This document shows positions 16,669 to 29,627 of a stretch of 30,161 nucleotides of DNA, piece after piece. The notes under the pieces were generated by a model. That model had not been told where the DNA came from. It saw only the letters and a program-made list of their open reading frames with translations, and did not search any database. Where the stretch lies: IMG/VR virus record IMGVR_UViG_3300032164_000053, positions 1-30,161 of that record; one strand, given 5' to 3'. This stretch comes from a virus. A program made the translations under genes and the position numbers. Within the stretch, counting starts at the first letter, position 1, and each line of letters opens with the position of its first letter.

Positions 16669-16904
16669 GGGGACGAATTGGATTCGATCAGACGGATGAT
16701 GTGTTTGGTTGCGTGTCGTGGTTGATCGGTGGGCCACGTTAAAAGCCGATTAAAACCTTAATTGCCAAACCGCAATTTGCTATGGCAGCCTAGCGACTGA
16801 CTGCTTGTTTGTTTCGAGTTTGTGTTGAGTTCGAGTTTCGATTACACACGTAGACACCGGCATAGAAACGTCCTGACACGAGGGTTCGATTCCCTCCGTC
16901 TCCA
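16669..16904 (+). ncRNA. ssrA: tmRNA (compact, phage-encoded), tag AKPQFAMAA
   Basis: The 5' end GGGGACGAATTGGATTCGA and the 3' end GAGGGTTCGATTCCCTC then CGTCTCC match the tRNA-like half of tmRNA. GGGGACG (16669-16675) pairs with CGTCTCC (16897-16903), and the T-arm stem is 5 bp. The tag frame is 16764-16793: Ala-Lys-Pro-Gln-Phe-Ala-Met-Ala-Ala, then TAG, ending in the usual hydrophobic-Ala-Ala degradation signal. A pseudoknot precedes it: cgtgg/ccacg (16717-16721, 16734-16738) interleaved with ttgatcgg/ccgattaa (16722-16729, 16746-16753). The terminal CCA is not encoded (the genome reads CTA). At about 236 bases it is shorter than typical bacterial tmRNAs. tmRNA with SmpB frees stalled ribosomes and tags proteins; no SmpB gene is seen here. 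Confidence 0.9.
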
Positions 16905-16935
16905 CTAATCACAAGGAAACCAAAAGGAAACTACC

Positions 16936-18606
16936 ATGCGTTTTCATCTCTTCGGATTGGCGAATATCCCGACATGCAAGGCGAATACGTATGAACCAAT
17001 GACACCATTGATTTGGAACATGGCGAAGATGCTCAAGGATAATGGGCATCATGTGACGTTTTACGGAGCCGAAGGAAGCGATGCTCCGTGCGACGAGATG
17101 GTCGTCATTGTTCCTAAACATCTTTTGCCTGATGGTTTGGTGATGGGAAGTCATGGAGTTCCGGCGGCAGCATGGAAGAACGATGGGGCAAGTGCCACTT
17201 GGCAAACGTTTATAGCGTTAGGACGCATGGCACTGCGCCGACGTTATCGGACGGGCGACATCTCGCTTATCAGTTTCGGACGGTATCAAAAGTTCGTCGC
17301 TGACGTGTCAACGCTGGCTTGTGAGTTTATCGTCGGATATTCCGGCATTTTCAGTTATCATAAGGTGTTCCCATCCTATGCGTGGATGCACTACCTTTAT
17401 GGTGAGTTGAAAATGGAGCGAAACCCGAATTGGATTGATGCTGTCATTCCACACTACCTGGATTTGGATGACTTCCAAGTGCAGGAAAAGAAGGGTGACT
17501 ATCTACTTTGTCTCGGGAGGTTGGATCGAGACAAGGGCACCGATATTGCGATTGACATTGCCAATCGGAGTGGATCAAAAATCATCGTGGCAGGCGTTGA
17601 TATGGTAACTCACGACGTTCCTGATTGGCTCAAACAACTGCCCGGTAACGTTGAGTTTACAGGGTACGTGAACTTGGAACAGCGTCTCGAATTGTTGCGG
17701 GGGGCGAAAGCACTTTTGCATCCATGCCGTTGGTTGGAACCCTTTGGCATGGTTCTCATTGAAGCCTTGGCGTGTGGGACGCCGATCATTGCAAGCGACT
17801 GGGGTGCGTTACCTGAGATCATTCAACAGGGAGTGACAGGATTTTGTTGTCGTGACATGGAAGAGTTCGTGAGTGCTGTGAATAGTATAAAATGGATTGA
17901 CCCTCTTGACTGTCGCCGTGCTGTGGAAGAACGTCACAGTCTACCTGTCGCATATCAGCAATACATGCGTTACTTTAGGCGACTCGAAAAGTTGCTTGGT
18001 GGCGGATGGTATGAAACTCGCGGGTTGTGGCGTGGGCCGGATGTCGTTGAGCGTGTGAAGTCCTTACAACATGACGGCATGTTGAAGGGTGTAGAAATCG
18101 GTGTTGACCGTGGGGCACTTTCAGGTTACTTACTGACTGAATTGCCGACCTTACAACTTGGCATGGTTGATACCTGGGGTGTCTTTGCGGAAGATTCCTC
18201 GTATGCTAAATCAGGGGACGGCATCGTTGCCCGTACACAGGAACAACGTGAAGAAGACTTGGCGGAAGCGTTGCGCGTGACAGACCACGCACGGGATCGT
18301 CGCCAAATTCTGCGAATGACTTCGGAAGAAGCAACACGGATGTTCGCACCTTGGGAATCTGCCGTTGAAGAAGGTTCACTTGATTTCGTTTTTCTCGATG
18401 CAGACCATTCATACGCAGGCATTGCTGCCGACATACAATTGTGGGCACCAAAAGTGCGAAGCGGCGGTCTGTTGTGCGGCCACGACTACGGCATGGAAGT
18501 GTTTTATCCGCAGTGGGGTGTGACACGGGCTGTGGACGAATATGCCGCCAAGATTGGTCAGACTGTACAACGAGGCGCAGATTGGACTTGGTTCATTCAA
18601 GTATAA
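16936..18606 (+). CDS. Fusion of GT4-type glycosyltransferase and class I SAM methyltransferase
   Basis: 556 residues; ATG 16936 with AAGGA upstream, directly after the tmRNA. Residues 1 to about 355 form a GT-B glycosyltransferase: LCLGRLDRDKGTDIAIDIA, then LLHPCRWLEPFGMVLIEALA (the E-x7-E motif near 268-276) and GTPIIASDWGALPEII. About 370-556 is a methyltransferase of the Methyltransf_24 kind: GVEIGVDRGALSG (SAM loop, near 385), LGMVDTWG and LDFVFLDADHSYAGIAADI, ending SGGLLCGHDYG. The first half would transfer a sugar from a nucleotide-sugar; the second would methylate a small or sugar-like substrate. Phages use such enzymes on DNA, virion proteins or host surface glycans; the target is unknown. 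Confidence 0.85.
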   Translation: MRFHLFGLANIPTCKANTYEPMTPLIWNMAKMLKDNGHHVTFYGAEGSDAPCDEMVVIVPKHLLPDGLVMGSHGVPAAAWKNDGASATWQTFIALGRMALRRRYRTGDISLISFGRYQKFVADVSTLACEFIVGYSGIFSYHKVFPSYAWMHYLYGELKMERNPNWIDAVIPHYLDLDDFQVQEKKGDYLLCLGRLDRDKGTDIAIDIANRSGSKIIVAGVDMVTHDVPDWLKQLPGNVEFTGYVNLEQRLELLRGAKALLHPCRWLEPFGMVLIEALACGTPIIASDWGALPEIIQQGVTGFCCRDMEEFVSAVNSIKWIDPLDCRRAVEERHSLPVAYQQYMRYFRRLEKLLGGGWYETRGLWRGPDVVERVKSLQHDGMLKGVEIGVDRGALSGYLLTELPTLQLGMVDTWGVFAEDSSYAKSGDGIVARTQEQREEDLAEALRVTDHARDRRQILRMTSEEATRMFAPWESAVEEGSLDFVFLDADHSYAGIAADIQLWAPKVRSGGLLCGHDYGMEVFYPQWGVTRAVDEYAAKIGQTVQRGADWTWFIQV

Positions 18607-18607
18607 C

Positions 18608-19126
18608 ATGCTTCCAGCCGTCATCATTATTCAACGTCCGACCGTGGATATGGCAGCCTTCATCGGCATCAGCCACAAGGTTCTTGGTCGCAGTCCGGCT
18701 GCCGCCATTGATGCGTGCCCGCGCAAGATGTCGGAAGCGGAACGTTTCCTAAGCTGCCTTGCGGCTTTGCGCGATCCCGAGGCTCGGGCGGGGTTGCAAC
18801 CGAACTTGTTAGCGCATACAACATTCAGTTTGTTTATGGTTGCGGATGAGCGCGACCTACTCGACATCATTGAGTGCGCCGCCGGGATGCCAGTCGTTTT
18901 CACAGAGACACTGGGGCGAGGCGTCATGGCCGCCGTATTCACGGGGACATTGAATCAGTGGCGGGATGCCGTCAAGGCAGGATCAAATCCCGATGCTGAA
19001 CATACGATTCGCCATTGCTTCAATCAGATTTACGGTCTGTTTTACAACGAAGGATTGAACGTATGGAGCGAGTTTAAGCAACGTCCTGGACCGGAACAAA
19101 CATTTTACCTAGAAGATAAGAGATGA
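18608..19126 (+). CDS. Phage protein of unknown function
   Basis: 172 residues from ATG 18608, two bases after the preceding stop; an in-frame ATG at 18542 lies inside the fusion gene and is less likely. Its stop overlaps the next start as ATGA, so it is coupled to the methyltransferase. The protein looks soluble and mixed alpha/beta: LPAVIIIQRPTVDMAAFIGI, EAERFLSCLAALRDPEA, FVFTETLG-like beta segment near residue 98, and AVFTGTLNQWRDAVKAG. I recognise no domain or catalytic motif. Confidence 0.65.
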   Translation: MLPAVIIIQRPTVDMAAFIGISHKVLGRSPAAAIDACPRKMSEAERFLSCLAALRDPEARAGLQPNLLAHTTFSLFMVADERDLLDIIECAAGMPVVFTETLGRGVMAAVFTGTLNQWRDAVKAGSNPDAEHTIRHCFNQIYGLFYNEGLNVWSEFKQRPGPEQTFYLEDKR

Positions 19127-20706
19127 AAGACATCACGTTGTATCAAGGTGATTGCCGGGATGTTCTTGCTACGTTGCCTGAGTCATGCGTGGATTATGTA
19201 GTTACGGACCCGCCCTACGGGATAAATTTCATGGGAGAAGGTTGGGATCATGTGGTTCCAGGACCGGAGTATTGGCGGGCAATCTTGCGTGTCTGCAAAC
19301 CTGGTGCGTTACTCTTGGCGTTCGGTGGCACACGAACCTATCATCGGCTGACTTGTGCGATTGAAGATGCGGGGTGGGAGATTCGAGACACCTTAATGTG
19401 GCTTTATGGGCAGGGGATGCCAAAGTGTGGTGACATCGGAAAGATGATCGACAAGTCAAAGGGAGCCAAACGCGAGATTATAGGCACCAAGTTAGGTCAA
19501 CCTGGTTATTCGCTCGCCAATAATGGCCGCACGAACGAAGTCTATGGCGACCTACATAATCCCGAGGCTGAGTGCGCTATCACGGCCCCGGCCACACCCG
19601 AGGCAGCAAAGTGGACTGGTTGGGCTATGGCCCTGAAACCGGCTTGGGAACCAATCGTCCTGGCGATGAAACCGATGGACGGGACGATTGCTCACAATGC
19701 TTTGACTTGGGACGTGGCGGGGATGAACATTGAAGCCAGTCGGGTTGGCACCGAGAGTACCGTGCGCACGCGCGGGGACAGTTTGACCGTGGCTGGTTGG
19801 GCGAGTACGAAGCGCTCACCCGTAGGCGGGTCCGAGTGCGGCCGGTGGCCTGCGAACGTGTTGTTGGATGAAGAGGCTGCCGCGCAGTTGGACGAGCAGA
19901 CTGGGCGGCTTAGTGTCACTGGGAAACGATCCGAGCGGAGTAAGAACGCAGTCGTGGAGGGTACGACTTGGGGTATCAACAATCATCTCAGCCGTGAATA
20001 TCCCAATGATTCTGGCGGGGCAAGTCGATTTTTTTATTGTGCTAAAGCAACAACCAACGAGCGAAATAAAGGTTGTGAAAAGGTGGTGACATGGGAAGAT
20101 GTGGACCTAAGCCAAGAGACGGACGAGTTGCTGAAACAGATCAGGGATATATCCGTTATTGGCACACACCGTCTGGCCGACGCCGCATGGAACACGATGT
20201 TGTCTGGGAGCAACATTACGGACCAATCCCGGATGGCTATTGCATCCATCATGTCAATTTTAATAAGATTGACAATCGAATTGAGAACCTGCAACTTCTC
20301 ACCTTCCTCGAACACAAACGCATCCATTCTGGGTGCTACAGAGATGTTGCTGGCGGCTGGATTAAACCTTGTCGCCGTTGCGGACGACATCGACCGATTG
20401 CGGACTTCTACAAGCGGCACGATGGCGTCACTGCTGAGTGCCGTCAGTGCAGCATCGCGCGTGTTGTCGCGGATAAGCGCAAAAGGAAGGCGCGGCAACA
20501 CGCACAGCACTGTTAAGCCCCTGACTCTGATGGAGTATTTGTTGGGTTTGCTTTCAACCCCGGATGGGGGACTTATCCTGGACCCATTTGCTGGCAGTGG
20601 TTCGACACTCGTGGCCGCCCGGCGACTAGGTCGCAGGTGCATCGGGATTGAACTGGACCCCCATAACTACGAGATTGCCACCCGAAGGATTCAATGCGAA
20701 AGTTGA
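19123..20706 (+). CDS. DNA methyltransferase (N4/N6, beta class) with an internal 140-residue interruption
   Basis: 527 residues. Motif IV TDPPYG is at 28-33 (YVVTDPPYGINFMGEGWD) and motif I, DPFAGSGST, is near 487, the IV-then-I order of beta-class amino-methyltransferases that modify adenine N6 or cytosine N4. FFYCAKATTNERNKGCE and NTHSTVKPLTLMEYLLGLL are the conserved segments that normally lie 30-60 residues apart. Here about 140 residues separate them, exactly where a 426-base HNH endonuclease gene sits in another frame. The methyltransferase frame stays open through it, giving a Ser/Leu/Ile-rich stretch with no resemblance to the family. The enzyme may tolerate the insert, be inactive, or need RNA removal of it. 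It probably protects phage DNA from restriction. Confidence 0.85.
   Translation: MKDITLYQGDCRDVLATLPESCVDYVVTDPPYGINFMGEGWDHVVPGPEYWRAILRVCKPGALLLAFGGTRTYHRLTCAIEDAGWEIRDTLMWLYGQGMPKCGDIGKMIDKSKGAKREIIGTKLGQPGYSLANNGRTNEVYGDLHNPEAECAITAPATPEAAKWTGWAMALKPAWEPIVLAMKPMDGTIAHNALTWDVAGMNIEASRVGTESTVRTRGDSLTVAGWASTKRSPVGGSECGRWPANVLLDEEAAAQLDEQTGRLSVTGKRSERSKNAVVEGTTWGINNHLSREYPNDSGGASRFFYCAKATTNERNKGCEKVVTWEDVDLSQETDELLKQIRDISVIGTHRLADAAWNTMLSGSNITDQSRMAIASIMSILIRLTIELRTCNFSPSSNTNASILGATEMLLAAGLNLVAVADDIDRLRTSTSGTMASLLSAVSAASRVLSRISAKGRRGNTHSTVKPLTLMEYLLGLLSTPDGGLILDPFAGSGSTLVAARRLGRRCIGIELDPHNYEIATRRIQCES
20091..20516 (+). CDS. HNH homing endonuclease nested within the methyltransferase gene
   Basis: 141 residues in a frame different from the surrounding gene. 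ATG 20091 has AAGGTGG just upstream. The HNH_3-type core is clear: YIRYWHTPSGRRRMEHDVVW, then PIPDGYCIHHVNFNKIDNRI, ENLQLLTFLEHKRIH, giving His-His, Asn and His. A zinc-ribbon-like part follows (CRRCGRHRPIADFYKRHDG, then ECRQC), and a basic tail. The stop overlaps codons for the methyltransferase HSTVKP motif. Such enzymes cut DNA at target sites to spread their own gene. Clean family match and own ribosome site argue strongly that it is expressed. Confidence 0.88.
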   Translation: MGRCGPKPRDGRVAETDQGYIRYWHTPSGRRRMEHDVVWEQHYGPIPDGYCIHHVNFNKIDNRIENLQLLTFLEHKRIHSGCYRDVAGGWIKPCRRCGRHRPIADFYKRHDGVTAECRQCSIARVVADKRKRKARQHAQHC

Positions 20707-20768
20707 TTCTCGCCAGTTTACTGTTGCTTATTGGTTGCCGACCGCCCGTGTCCATGCCGCAGCCGTAG
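20694..20768 (+). CDS. Short lipoprotein, apparently cut by an amber codon
   Basis: ATG 20694 overlaps the methyltransferase end and has GAAGGA 7 bases upstream. The product MRKLILASLLLLIGC then RPPVSMPQP has a textbook lipoprotein signal (hydrophobic core and lipobox LIGC), with mature Cys at 15, but only 24 residues before TAG. In the same frame after TAG the sequence continues open as PQPQPQPQPRSPRPPRSPRP and on to TAA at 20858. A single CAG-to-TAG change in the ccgcag repeat would explain the break. A proline-rich small lipoprotein of about 54 residues would resemble an outer-membrane spanin (Rz1 type), but no inner spanin partner is seen. Confidence 0.6.
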   Translation: MRKLILASLLLLIGCRPPVSMPQP

Positions 20769-20830
20769 CCGCAGCCGCAGCCGCAGCCGCAACCACGGTC
20801 GCCACGGCCGCCACGGTCGCCACGGCCCGA
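20757..20830 (+). repeat. ccgcag / cacggtcgc low-complexity repeats
   Basis: Tandem ccgcag hexamers are followed by ccacggtcg/ccacggccg nonamers, coding for a Pro-Gln then Pro-Arg-Ser repeat in the lipoprotein frame. All frames are open over much of it. Such tracts mutate readily, which may account for the in-frame TAG at 20766. Confidence 0.8.
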
Positions 20831-28589: not shown

Positions 28590-28595
28590 AGACGT

Positions 28596-28677
28596 GGGGT
28601 AGATGCTCGATGGACGGGCAGCGGGCTGTAAACCCGCCGGTCACACGACCAATAGGGTTCGATTCCCTACTGCCCCA
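28596..28677 (+). tRNA. tRNA-Tyr (GUA)
   Basis: Cloverleaf drawn by hand: acceptor ggggtag/ctgcccc (one G-U), D stem gctc/gggc, anticodon stem gcggg/cccgc with loop ctGTAaa, a long variable arm with ggtc/gacc stem (as in bacterial tRNA-Tyr), T-arm taggg-ttcgatt-cccta. The CCA end is not encoded. Confidence 0.92.
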
Positions 28678-28680
28678 TAT

Positions 28681-28751
28681 AGCGGGTTCGAGAAGTGGCA
28701 TCTCAACGGTCTCATACGCCGTTCACAGTGGTTCGAGTCCACTACCCGCCA
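28681..28751 (+). tRNA. tRNA with CAU anticodon (Met)
   Basis: Acceptor agcgggt/acccgcc (first pair A-C unpaired), D stem gaga/tctc, anticodon stem acggt/gccgt with loop ctCATac, T-arm agtgg-ttcgagt-ccact. CCA is not encoded. The unpaired 1-72 position recalls initiator tRNA, but the three G-C pairs of an initiator anticodon stem are missing. Could be elongator Met or Ile-lysidine type. Confidence 0.85.
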
Positions 28752-28753
28752 CT

Positions 28754-29533
28754 ATGAACATTGATGAATACGCTCAACAACGTCTCTGTGATACCCGCCT
28801 ATTTTGGCTGGCAAAGAACTACCTTGCGCGCAAGGGGTGGTTTCTTTCGTTATCAGGCGAACCCCAGGATGCAAATGGTCCAATACCTTGGATCACGTAT
28901 CCTGCGGTGTCGATGTTGTTGAGGATCATACGGCCGGACTTCAAGGTTTTTGAGTTTGGTTGTGGATCGTCTACGGTATGGTGGAGCAAGTTGGTCCGGG
29001 CAGTTATTGCCGTGGATCACAACCAGCAATGGGTCGAGAAGGTTCGCACTAACGCGACTGAACGGGCGGTCGTGATACATCGCGCGATGAATTGTCCAAC
29101 GGCATACACAACGGTCCTAGAGGAGTTCTTTCAGAAGAACTATGAGTTGCCCACATCGGGGAATGTTGCGCACGACATCGAACATGGTCTACTTTGCAAA
29201 GAGTTTGCGGGATATGCCTCAGAGATTCTGACCTACCCAGTAGGTTATTTCGACCTTGTTGTTGTGGACGGCATGGCGCGGATTCTTACCGCTTGGTTGG
29301 CGGCGCGTCAACTTGGACCGAATGGAATTGTCCTATTTGACAACTCGGAACGTTGGCAGTATAATGCCGCCTATCAACTGTTGGTCGATGCTGGGTTTGT
29401 CCGACTTGACTTTTGGGGAGTGGGTCCGGTACAGAGATACGAATGGTGTACTTCGATCTTTGTACGGAATCCTGAAATCTTGAAACAGAATCCCCTTATT
29501 CCCTGCGGACAGAGGGCGGATTTGGGGTGGTGA
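28754..29533 (+). CDS. Class I SAM-dependent methyltransferase
   Basis: 259 residues; ATG 28754 is two bases after tRNA-Met, and the frame's upstream extension only crosses the tRNAs. No ribosome site is seen. The SAM-binding loop is VFEFGCGSSTVWW (near 67), then VIAVDHNQQWVEKV, and later FDLVVVDGMAR and GPNGIVLFDNSERW, typical of Rossmann methyltransferases acting on small molecules or sugars. Target unknown; might modify surface glycans or nucleotides. Ends 4 bases before tRNA-Asn. Translation may be leaderless after tRNA processing. Confidence 0.8.
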   Translation: MNIDEYAQQRLCDTRLFWLAKNYLARKGWFLSLSGEPQDANGPIPWITYPAVSMLLRIIRPDFKVFEFGCGSSTVWWSKLVRAVIAVDHNQQWVEKVRTNATERAVVIHRAMNCPTAYTTVLEEFFQKNYELPTSGNVAHDIEHGLLCKEFAGYASEILTYPVGYFDLVVVDGMARILTAWLAARQLGPNGIVLFDNSERWQYNAAYQLLVDAGFVRLDFWGVGPVQRYEWCTSIFVRNPEILKQNPLIPCGQRADLGW

Positions 29534-29537
29534 CATT

Positions 29538-29611
29538 TGCACGGTAGCTCAGCGTGGCAGAGCAACGGCCCGTTAAGCCGATGGTCCCAGGTTCGAGTCC
29601 TGGCCGTGCAG
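29538..29611 (+). tRNA. tRNA-Asn (GUU)
   Basis: Acceptor tgcacgg/ccgtgca, D stem gctc/gagc, anticodon loop ccGTTaa on stem cggc/gccg (the outermost pair is A-A), T-arm ccagg-ttcgagt-cctgg. Position 33 is C instead of the near-universal U. CCA not encoded. Confidence 0.82.
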
Positions 29612-29627
29612 TTAAGGAGACTTTGAT

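Follow-up and report, generated by a model that had tools for sequence, protein, structure and literature searches.

The DNA examined here is a stretch of 30,161 nucleotides (positions 1 to 30,161 of the IMG/VR viral record IMGVR_UViG_3300032164_000053, hereafter the window), and, in a comparison spanning 11.5 kb, its contig proved identical to IMGVR_UViG_3300032053_000140. Two of the genes in the window, both on the plus strand, lie one within the other. The outer, host gene (19123..20706) encodes a beta-class N6/N4 DNA methyltransferase of 527 aa, read through the insert described below and assigned by profile searches (PF01555, 1.3e-26; phrog_67, 5e-63) and by DPPY and FxGxG motifs flanking the insert. 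In the translation, the catalytic motif DPPY (residues 29-32; 19207..19218) is nearly invariant in A2, and the conserved motif DPFAGSGS (20581..20604) marks the methylase resuming 3′ of the insert. The inner gene (20091..20516), identified as an ORF, by alignment and by a profile match to PF13392 HNH_3 (5.4e-16), encodes an HNH endonuclease of 141 aa followed by a TAA stop. Its HNH_3 core covers residues 35-77 (20193..20321), and a C-terminal zinc ribbon is formed by C94-C97 and C117-C120 (20370..20450); the catalytic and zinc residues, including these cysteines, are invariant in a 10-sequence alignment. The HNH sequence profile gave no match to solved structures at E<=0.1. Directly 5′ of the HNH ATG lies a Shine-Dalgarno-like sequence, AAGGTGGTGA (20080..20089), recognized by its duplex energy.

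The two reading frames differ, with each host codon starting one base after an HNH codon (+1 offset). Over the length of the HNH gene (141 codons), the host frame is free of stops and the third frame has nine; together with the ORFs and family matches, this confirms the original prediction of an HNH gene nested within a methylase gene whose frame remains open. The HNH stop is supplied by the host motif HSTVKP (20503..20520), the insertion landmark of the family, through its V-K codons (GT TAA G), and it falls at the same place in L003, L088-L092, L095, L098, and L100. An antisense ORF (20034-20642) had no family match and was taken as a by-product of composition.

Elsewhere in the window, a tmRNA gene (16669-16905; tag AKPQFAMAA; Rfam E 4e-36) is present on this viral contig, and tRNA-Tyr, tRNA-Met, and tRNA-Asn genes lie at 28595-29612. 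A single ORF (16936-18606) fuses a GT4-like glycosyltransferase to a Methyltransf_24 domain, tandem repeats of GCCGCA and CCACGGTCG occur directly 3′ of the methylase gene (20756-20827), and a second DNA methylase gene of the contig (24399-25241) encodes 280 aa (phrog_67, 6e-49).

Alignment to uninterrupted homologues defined the approximate ends of the insert. The left flank (20025..20079), with host residues ..RFFYCAKATTNERNKGCE, is common to insert-free homologues up to about ERN. Close insert-free relatives read FFYCAKATKKERGPGNDHPTVKP, with 14 residues from FFY to the H of HxTVKP, and this linker measures 17, 20 or 61 residues in a few other insert-free homologues. The same linker is 155 residues long in the window and in three relatives that bear the insert. 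As it is 14-20 residues in close homologues, we place the insert at about 20080..20496, or ~139 codons in the host frame, with the left edge uncertain by several codons. The HNH gene fills nearly all of this ~417-base insert. One homologue, L044 (ERNAGCEHLGGNAHPCVKP), resembles the insert-free counterpart of the window's ERNKGCE...GNTHSTVKP, and insert-free alleles at the same site, as expected for a homing endonuclease, exist in L017-L033 and others. The insert length is thus a multiple of three, as had been proposed; the normal linker is shorter than the 30-60 residues assumed at that time, being 14-20 residues in the nearest insert-free homologues (61 in two). A different insertion is found in the same methylase family, where L003:138-2231 has an in-frame LAGLIDADG endonuclease domain (PF00961, 3e-6) after TDPPYLLNFMEK, spanning near residues 58-156 of the host methylase. 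LAGLIDADG-like sequence also occurs in L035 and L041, L037 has an insertion of the same length, and L003 carries both the LAGLIDADG domain and a nested HNH.

Scanning IMG/VR and GTDB genomes with the HNH alignment yielded a set of 64 loci, including the window. At 45 of these, the HNH gene lies within a methylase ORF at the same +1 offset and with zero host-frame stops. The remaining 19 are free-standing: most are directly 3′ of an intact methylase gene, in Planctomycetota genomes and viral contigs, and no adjacent methylase was detected for the rest. Known phage systems include free-standing HNH genes beside their target gene, a position that these relatives recall, and insertions that split a gene (for example, mobE in nrdA); the window HNH sits inside a gene whose frame is not split. 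At one locus with a nested HNH, L142, the host frame is broken by a frameshift, reflecting either decay or sequencing error.

Expected stop numbers were obtained by shuffling synonymous codons within each gene or from host codon usage. For the window alone, a stop-free host frame has a probability of 0.76 when the gene's own synonymous codons are shuffled and ~0.01 under host codon usage, so that stop exclusion was tested family-wide. The 45 nested genes contain 0 host-frame stops against 46 (own codons) or 142 (host usage) expected, and 24-80 are still expected in nested genes when one gene is taken per lineage (21 lineages). The 19 free-standing genes contain 67 stops against 67.6 expected. 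Circularity of the "nested" label was checked through the methylase neighbors of the free-standing genes. An open host frame is therefore only moderately unusual in the window itself; it is across the relatives that the evidence is overwhelming. That the frame is open by chance, merely because stops are few at this offset in an HNH gene of moderately high GC, would agree with the 76% of window shuffles that leave it open. Chance nevertheless fails across the family, including at loci of 34-38% GC (L091, L095, L124, and L131), where the third frame is stopped 7-23 times and the host frame never, and the free-standing relatives show the stop number expected; we give it almost no credence. The proposal that selection keeps the host frame stop-free is thus borne out by the family statistics and not by the window sequence alone.

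Selection was then measured on both frames by classing changes according to their effect on each, in an OLGenie-like count with bootstrapping over codons. This measure makes no correction for transition bias or multiple hits and takes non-independent pairs together, but its controls were clean. Host-frame dNN/dNS was 0.39 (0.25-0.61) for the clade of the window, 0.40 (0.18-0.74) for that of L090, and 0.60 (0.39-0.91) for a clade nested in inteins. The corresponding frame of two free-standing groups gave 0.91 (0.65-1.38) and 1.09 (0.76-1.63), and the unused third frame gave ratios near 1 in all groups. As the ratio is below 1 in nested clades and about 1 in free-standing ones, the host frame is constrained only where the HNH is nested. 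In the HNH frame, dNN/dSN was 0.22 (0.13-0.33) in the window clade and 0.16-0.27 in all groups. Purifying selection therefore acts on both frames of the window clade.

Constraint on the host frame might also be expected if the insert were now an ordinary methylase domain, for example, in target recognition, with the HNH frame a decaying relic. The AlphaFold2 model of the window could be read in the same way, as the insert there forms a helical bundle predicted with confidence (pLDDT ~83-96 for most of the segment), although this fold is covered by three alignment rows only and helices are easily over-predicted. Similarly, the nested HNH frame of L111:4001-4375 is stopped at codon 99 with the host/intein frame open, a pattern as expected for a decaying endonuclease. 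Against a relic, conservation is stronger for the HNH amino acids than for those of the host frame (0.22 vs 0.39), the HNH catalytic and zinc residues are the invariant positions described above, and close homologues do without the insert. We regard an ordinary domain as very unlikely and retain the reading of a probably functional HNH gene overlapped by a host frame that is kept readable.

In the intein branch described below, AlphaFold2 predicts the shadow stretch to be disordered (pLDDT ~21-27), and this contrast in predicted fold agrees with the tighter constraint on the host frame in cases where the segment would stay in the protein. Relative to synonymous shuffles, shadow frames of direct inserts showed weak trends toward helical moment (mean z +0.8) and hydrophobicity (mean z +1.0); as these are weak, we do not claim a selected fold. 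Foldseek matched the methylase part of the window host and returned no clear match for the helical insert.

The distribution of the insert indicates mobility. With the insert removed, the window methylase body is 78-82% identical to its closest insert-free homologues and 68-71% identical to the three insert-bearing ones, the HNHs of which are 72-81% identical to that of the window. A single clade of insert-bearing hosts was rejected (AU test, p=2.5e-9). Since insert-bearing hosts are not a clade and close homologues lack the insert, the insert moves, in support of the mobile insertion originally suggested. Judging from these comparisons, the patchy distribution would fit homing between diverged methylases; recombination within the gene, without cutting, could also be its source. 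In every nested locus with complete right-hand sequence, the insertion lies no more than ~60 bases from an [HN]xTxKP motif. In the HNH tree, the nested genes and the non-nested L101, L114, and L126 fall on one side with full support and 14 free-standing genes fall opposite, and the direct and intein types each tend to group together (four label changes).

HNH ORFs are frequent in phage group I introns, so an intron of group I or II carrying the HNH ORF and spliced as RNA has to be weighed. Rfam intron families gave no match in the window at gathering score and none in 19900-20706 at E<=10, settling in the negative the covariance search proposed for this region. The ~417-base insert, being nearly all HNH ORF, leaves no room for an intron core, and an intron would need neither the exclusion of host-frame stops nor the conservation of host-frame amino acids that we observe. 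As far as computation allows, an intron is excluded, and we hold it to be very unlikely.

The relationship to inteins is closer. The window host frame has no match to a Hint, intein or splicing-domain family. However, a second branch of the window HNH lineage (L104, L106, L115, L124, L128, L131, L136-L139, L143, L145, and others) lies, out of frame and at the same offset, inside methylase inteins. Many of these hosts are ParB-methylases, and the host frames show CLCPGxEVLT, TGNHPFLV, VWNLSV or VYNLTI, and SHN followed by the T of TMKP. Pfam reports Hint_2 or Intein_splicing for the branch, partly below the curated cut-off, with a splicing domain detected in L104, L124, L128, and L138, and Foldseek matched the gp41-1, AceL NrdHF, and Mja TFIIB inteins. 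L104:3995-4492 is an example of an HNH out of frame in a true methylase intein, whose host frame retains intact splicing motifs. Several intein-nested HNH loci are in bacterial genomes, including Accumulibacter, Janthinobacterium, and Iodobacter.

The original prediction had called the arrangement distinct from inteins. This holds for the window itself, which lacks a splicing domain, and does not hold for its HNH lineage, members of which are out of frame inside inteins at the same motif and the same methylase site (CLCPG..., TGNHPFLV, SHN|T). Like an intein with a homing endonuclease domain, the window arrangement keeps the host protein intact; in usual inteins, though, the endonuclease is a domain of the intein protein, whereas the HNH of the intein branch is encoded out of frame. 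Our literature search found no out-of-frame HNH in inteins, although a preprint on non-canonical intein architecture (10.1101/2025.01.02.630785) may overlap. On balance, we lean toward a dual-frame HNH lineage whose second frame is harmless, and possibly folded in direct insertions, and which is also found out of frame in inteins.

We next considered how the HNH protein might be translated. Its ATG is preceded by AAGGTGGTGAC (SD-like, AAGGTGG), with a duplex energy of -7.8 compared with a mean of -3.3 at the other start codons of the host gene (rank 0.034). With near-copies removed, SD-like pairing at HNH starts exceeds that at other starts in the same genes (median rank 0.06, KS p=0.009). The site is weak or missing in L091, L098, L102, L123, L124, L130, L131, and L133. 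As the frames overlap, a methylase-HNH fusion produced by programmed ribosomal frameshifting from the methylase frame is possible in place of internal initiation. An HNH-frame stop at 20076-20078, 12 bases before the ATG, leaves almost no window for entry, though, and the ATG is preceded by the SD-like site, making frameshifting highly improbable.

We can postulate the following model, in which a homing gene has inserted into a phage methylase at HxTVKP and spares its host through a readable overlapping frame; we put its probability at roughly 85%. A homing endonuclease gene would have entered the DNA methylase gene adjoining the conserved HxTVKP, and the host gene would survive because the +1 frame of the insert is free of stops and joins the methylase frame at both ends. 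Ribosomes reading through would produce a methylase with an extra segment of ~140 residues, which may still be active, and a separate start at the internal ATG that follows AAGGTGG would yield the HNH endonuclease. The HNH would probably cut methylase genes lacking the insert, within or close to the sequence coding for TVKP, and repair would then copy the insert into the cut allele, which constitutes homing.

The idea of such an arrangement is not new and has a published precedent. The ShiLan domain is an HNH encoded out of frame within methylases of mycobacteriophages, the frame of which stays open, and the same paper describes a second case, Pacc40 (Arsenault, Gosselin, Gogarten 2025, PMC11855218); a single clade for ShiLan hosts was also rejected (Gosselin et al. 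2023, PMC9957025). In our literature search, the ShiLan papers alone describe this arrangement. As in the window, ShiLan combines an out-of-frame HNH in a phage methylase, an open host frame, the lack of an intron or intein, and patchy horizontal spread, and the ShiLan-type insert of the Murica methylase (L151) has the same frame offset. The window HNH, however, belongs to a different HNH_3 lineage; its zinc ribbon is C-terminal, it lacks an N-terminal finger, and only the HNH core aligns with the Murica copy (35% over 100 residues). The insertion sites also differ, at HxTVKP in the window and between TALKP and FEPIV in Murica, as do the HNH starts, with an SD-like site in the window and leaderless GTG initiation proposed for ShiLan (PMC11855218). 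Nesting with an open frame and mobility are thus shared, while HNH family and site, as represented by the Murica copy, are not; the window is an arrangement of the ShiLan kind and not the same element. A more ShiLan-like nested HNH (L082:460-1059) has the opposite (+2) offset, and its host frame runs for 200 codons without a stop, against 5-10 expected (P 0.0014). It is apparently an independent case, so that open host frames have arisen more than once.

The general view is that a homing gene residing in a protein gene needs an intron or intein as a hiding place. New here are the size of the family, the stop statistics, selection in both frames with free-standing genes as controls, and the intein-nested branch. 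A family this large, in which selection can be measured on both frames, constitutes a third route besides intron and intein and makes a testable general mechanism of what was one oddity in the literature, and the locus offers a natural, repeatedly sampled case of overlapping-gene evolution with free-standing relatives as controls. If the dual-frame reading is true, a homing gene can reside in a protein gene that has neither intron nor intein, and the endonucleases of inteins need not belong to the intein protein. The intein-nested relatives, finally, suggest how endonucleases might enter or leave inteins.
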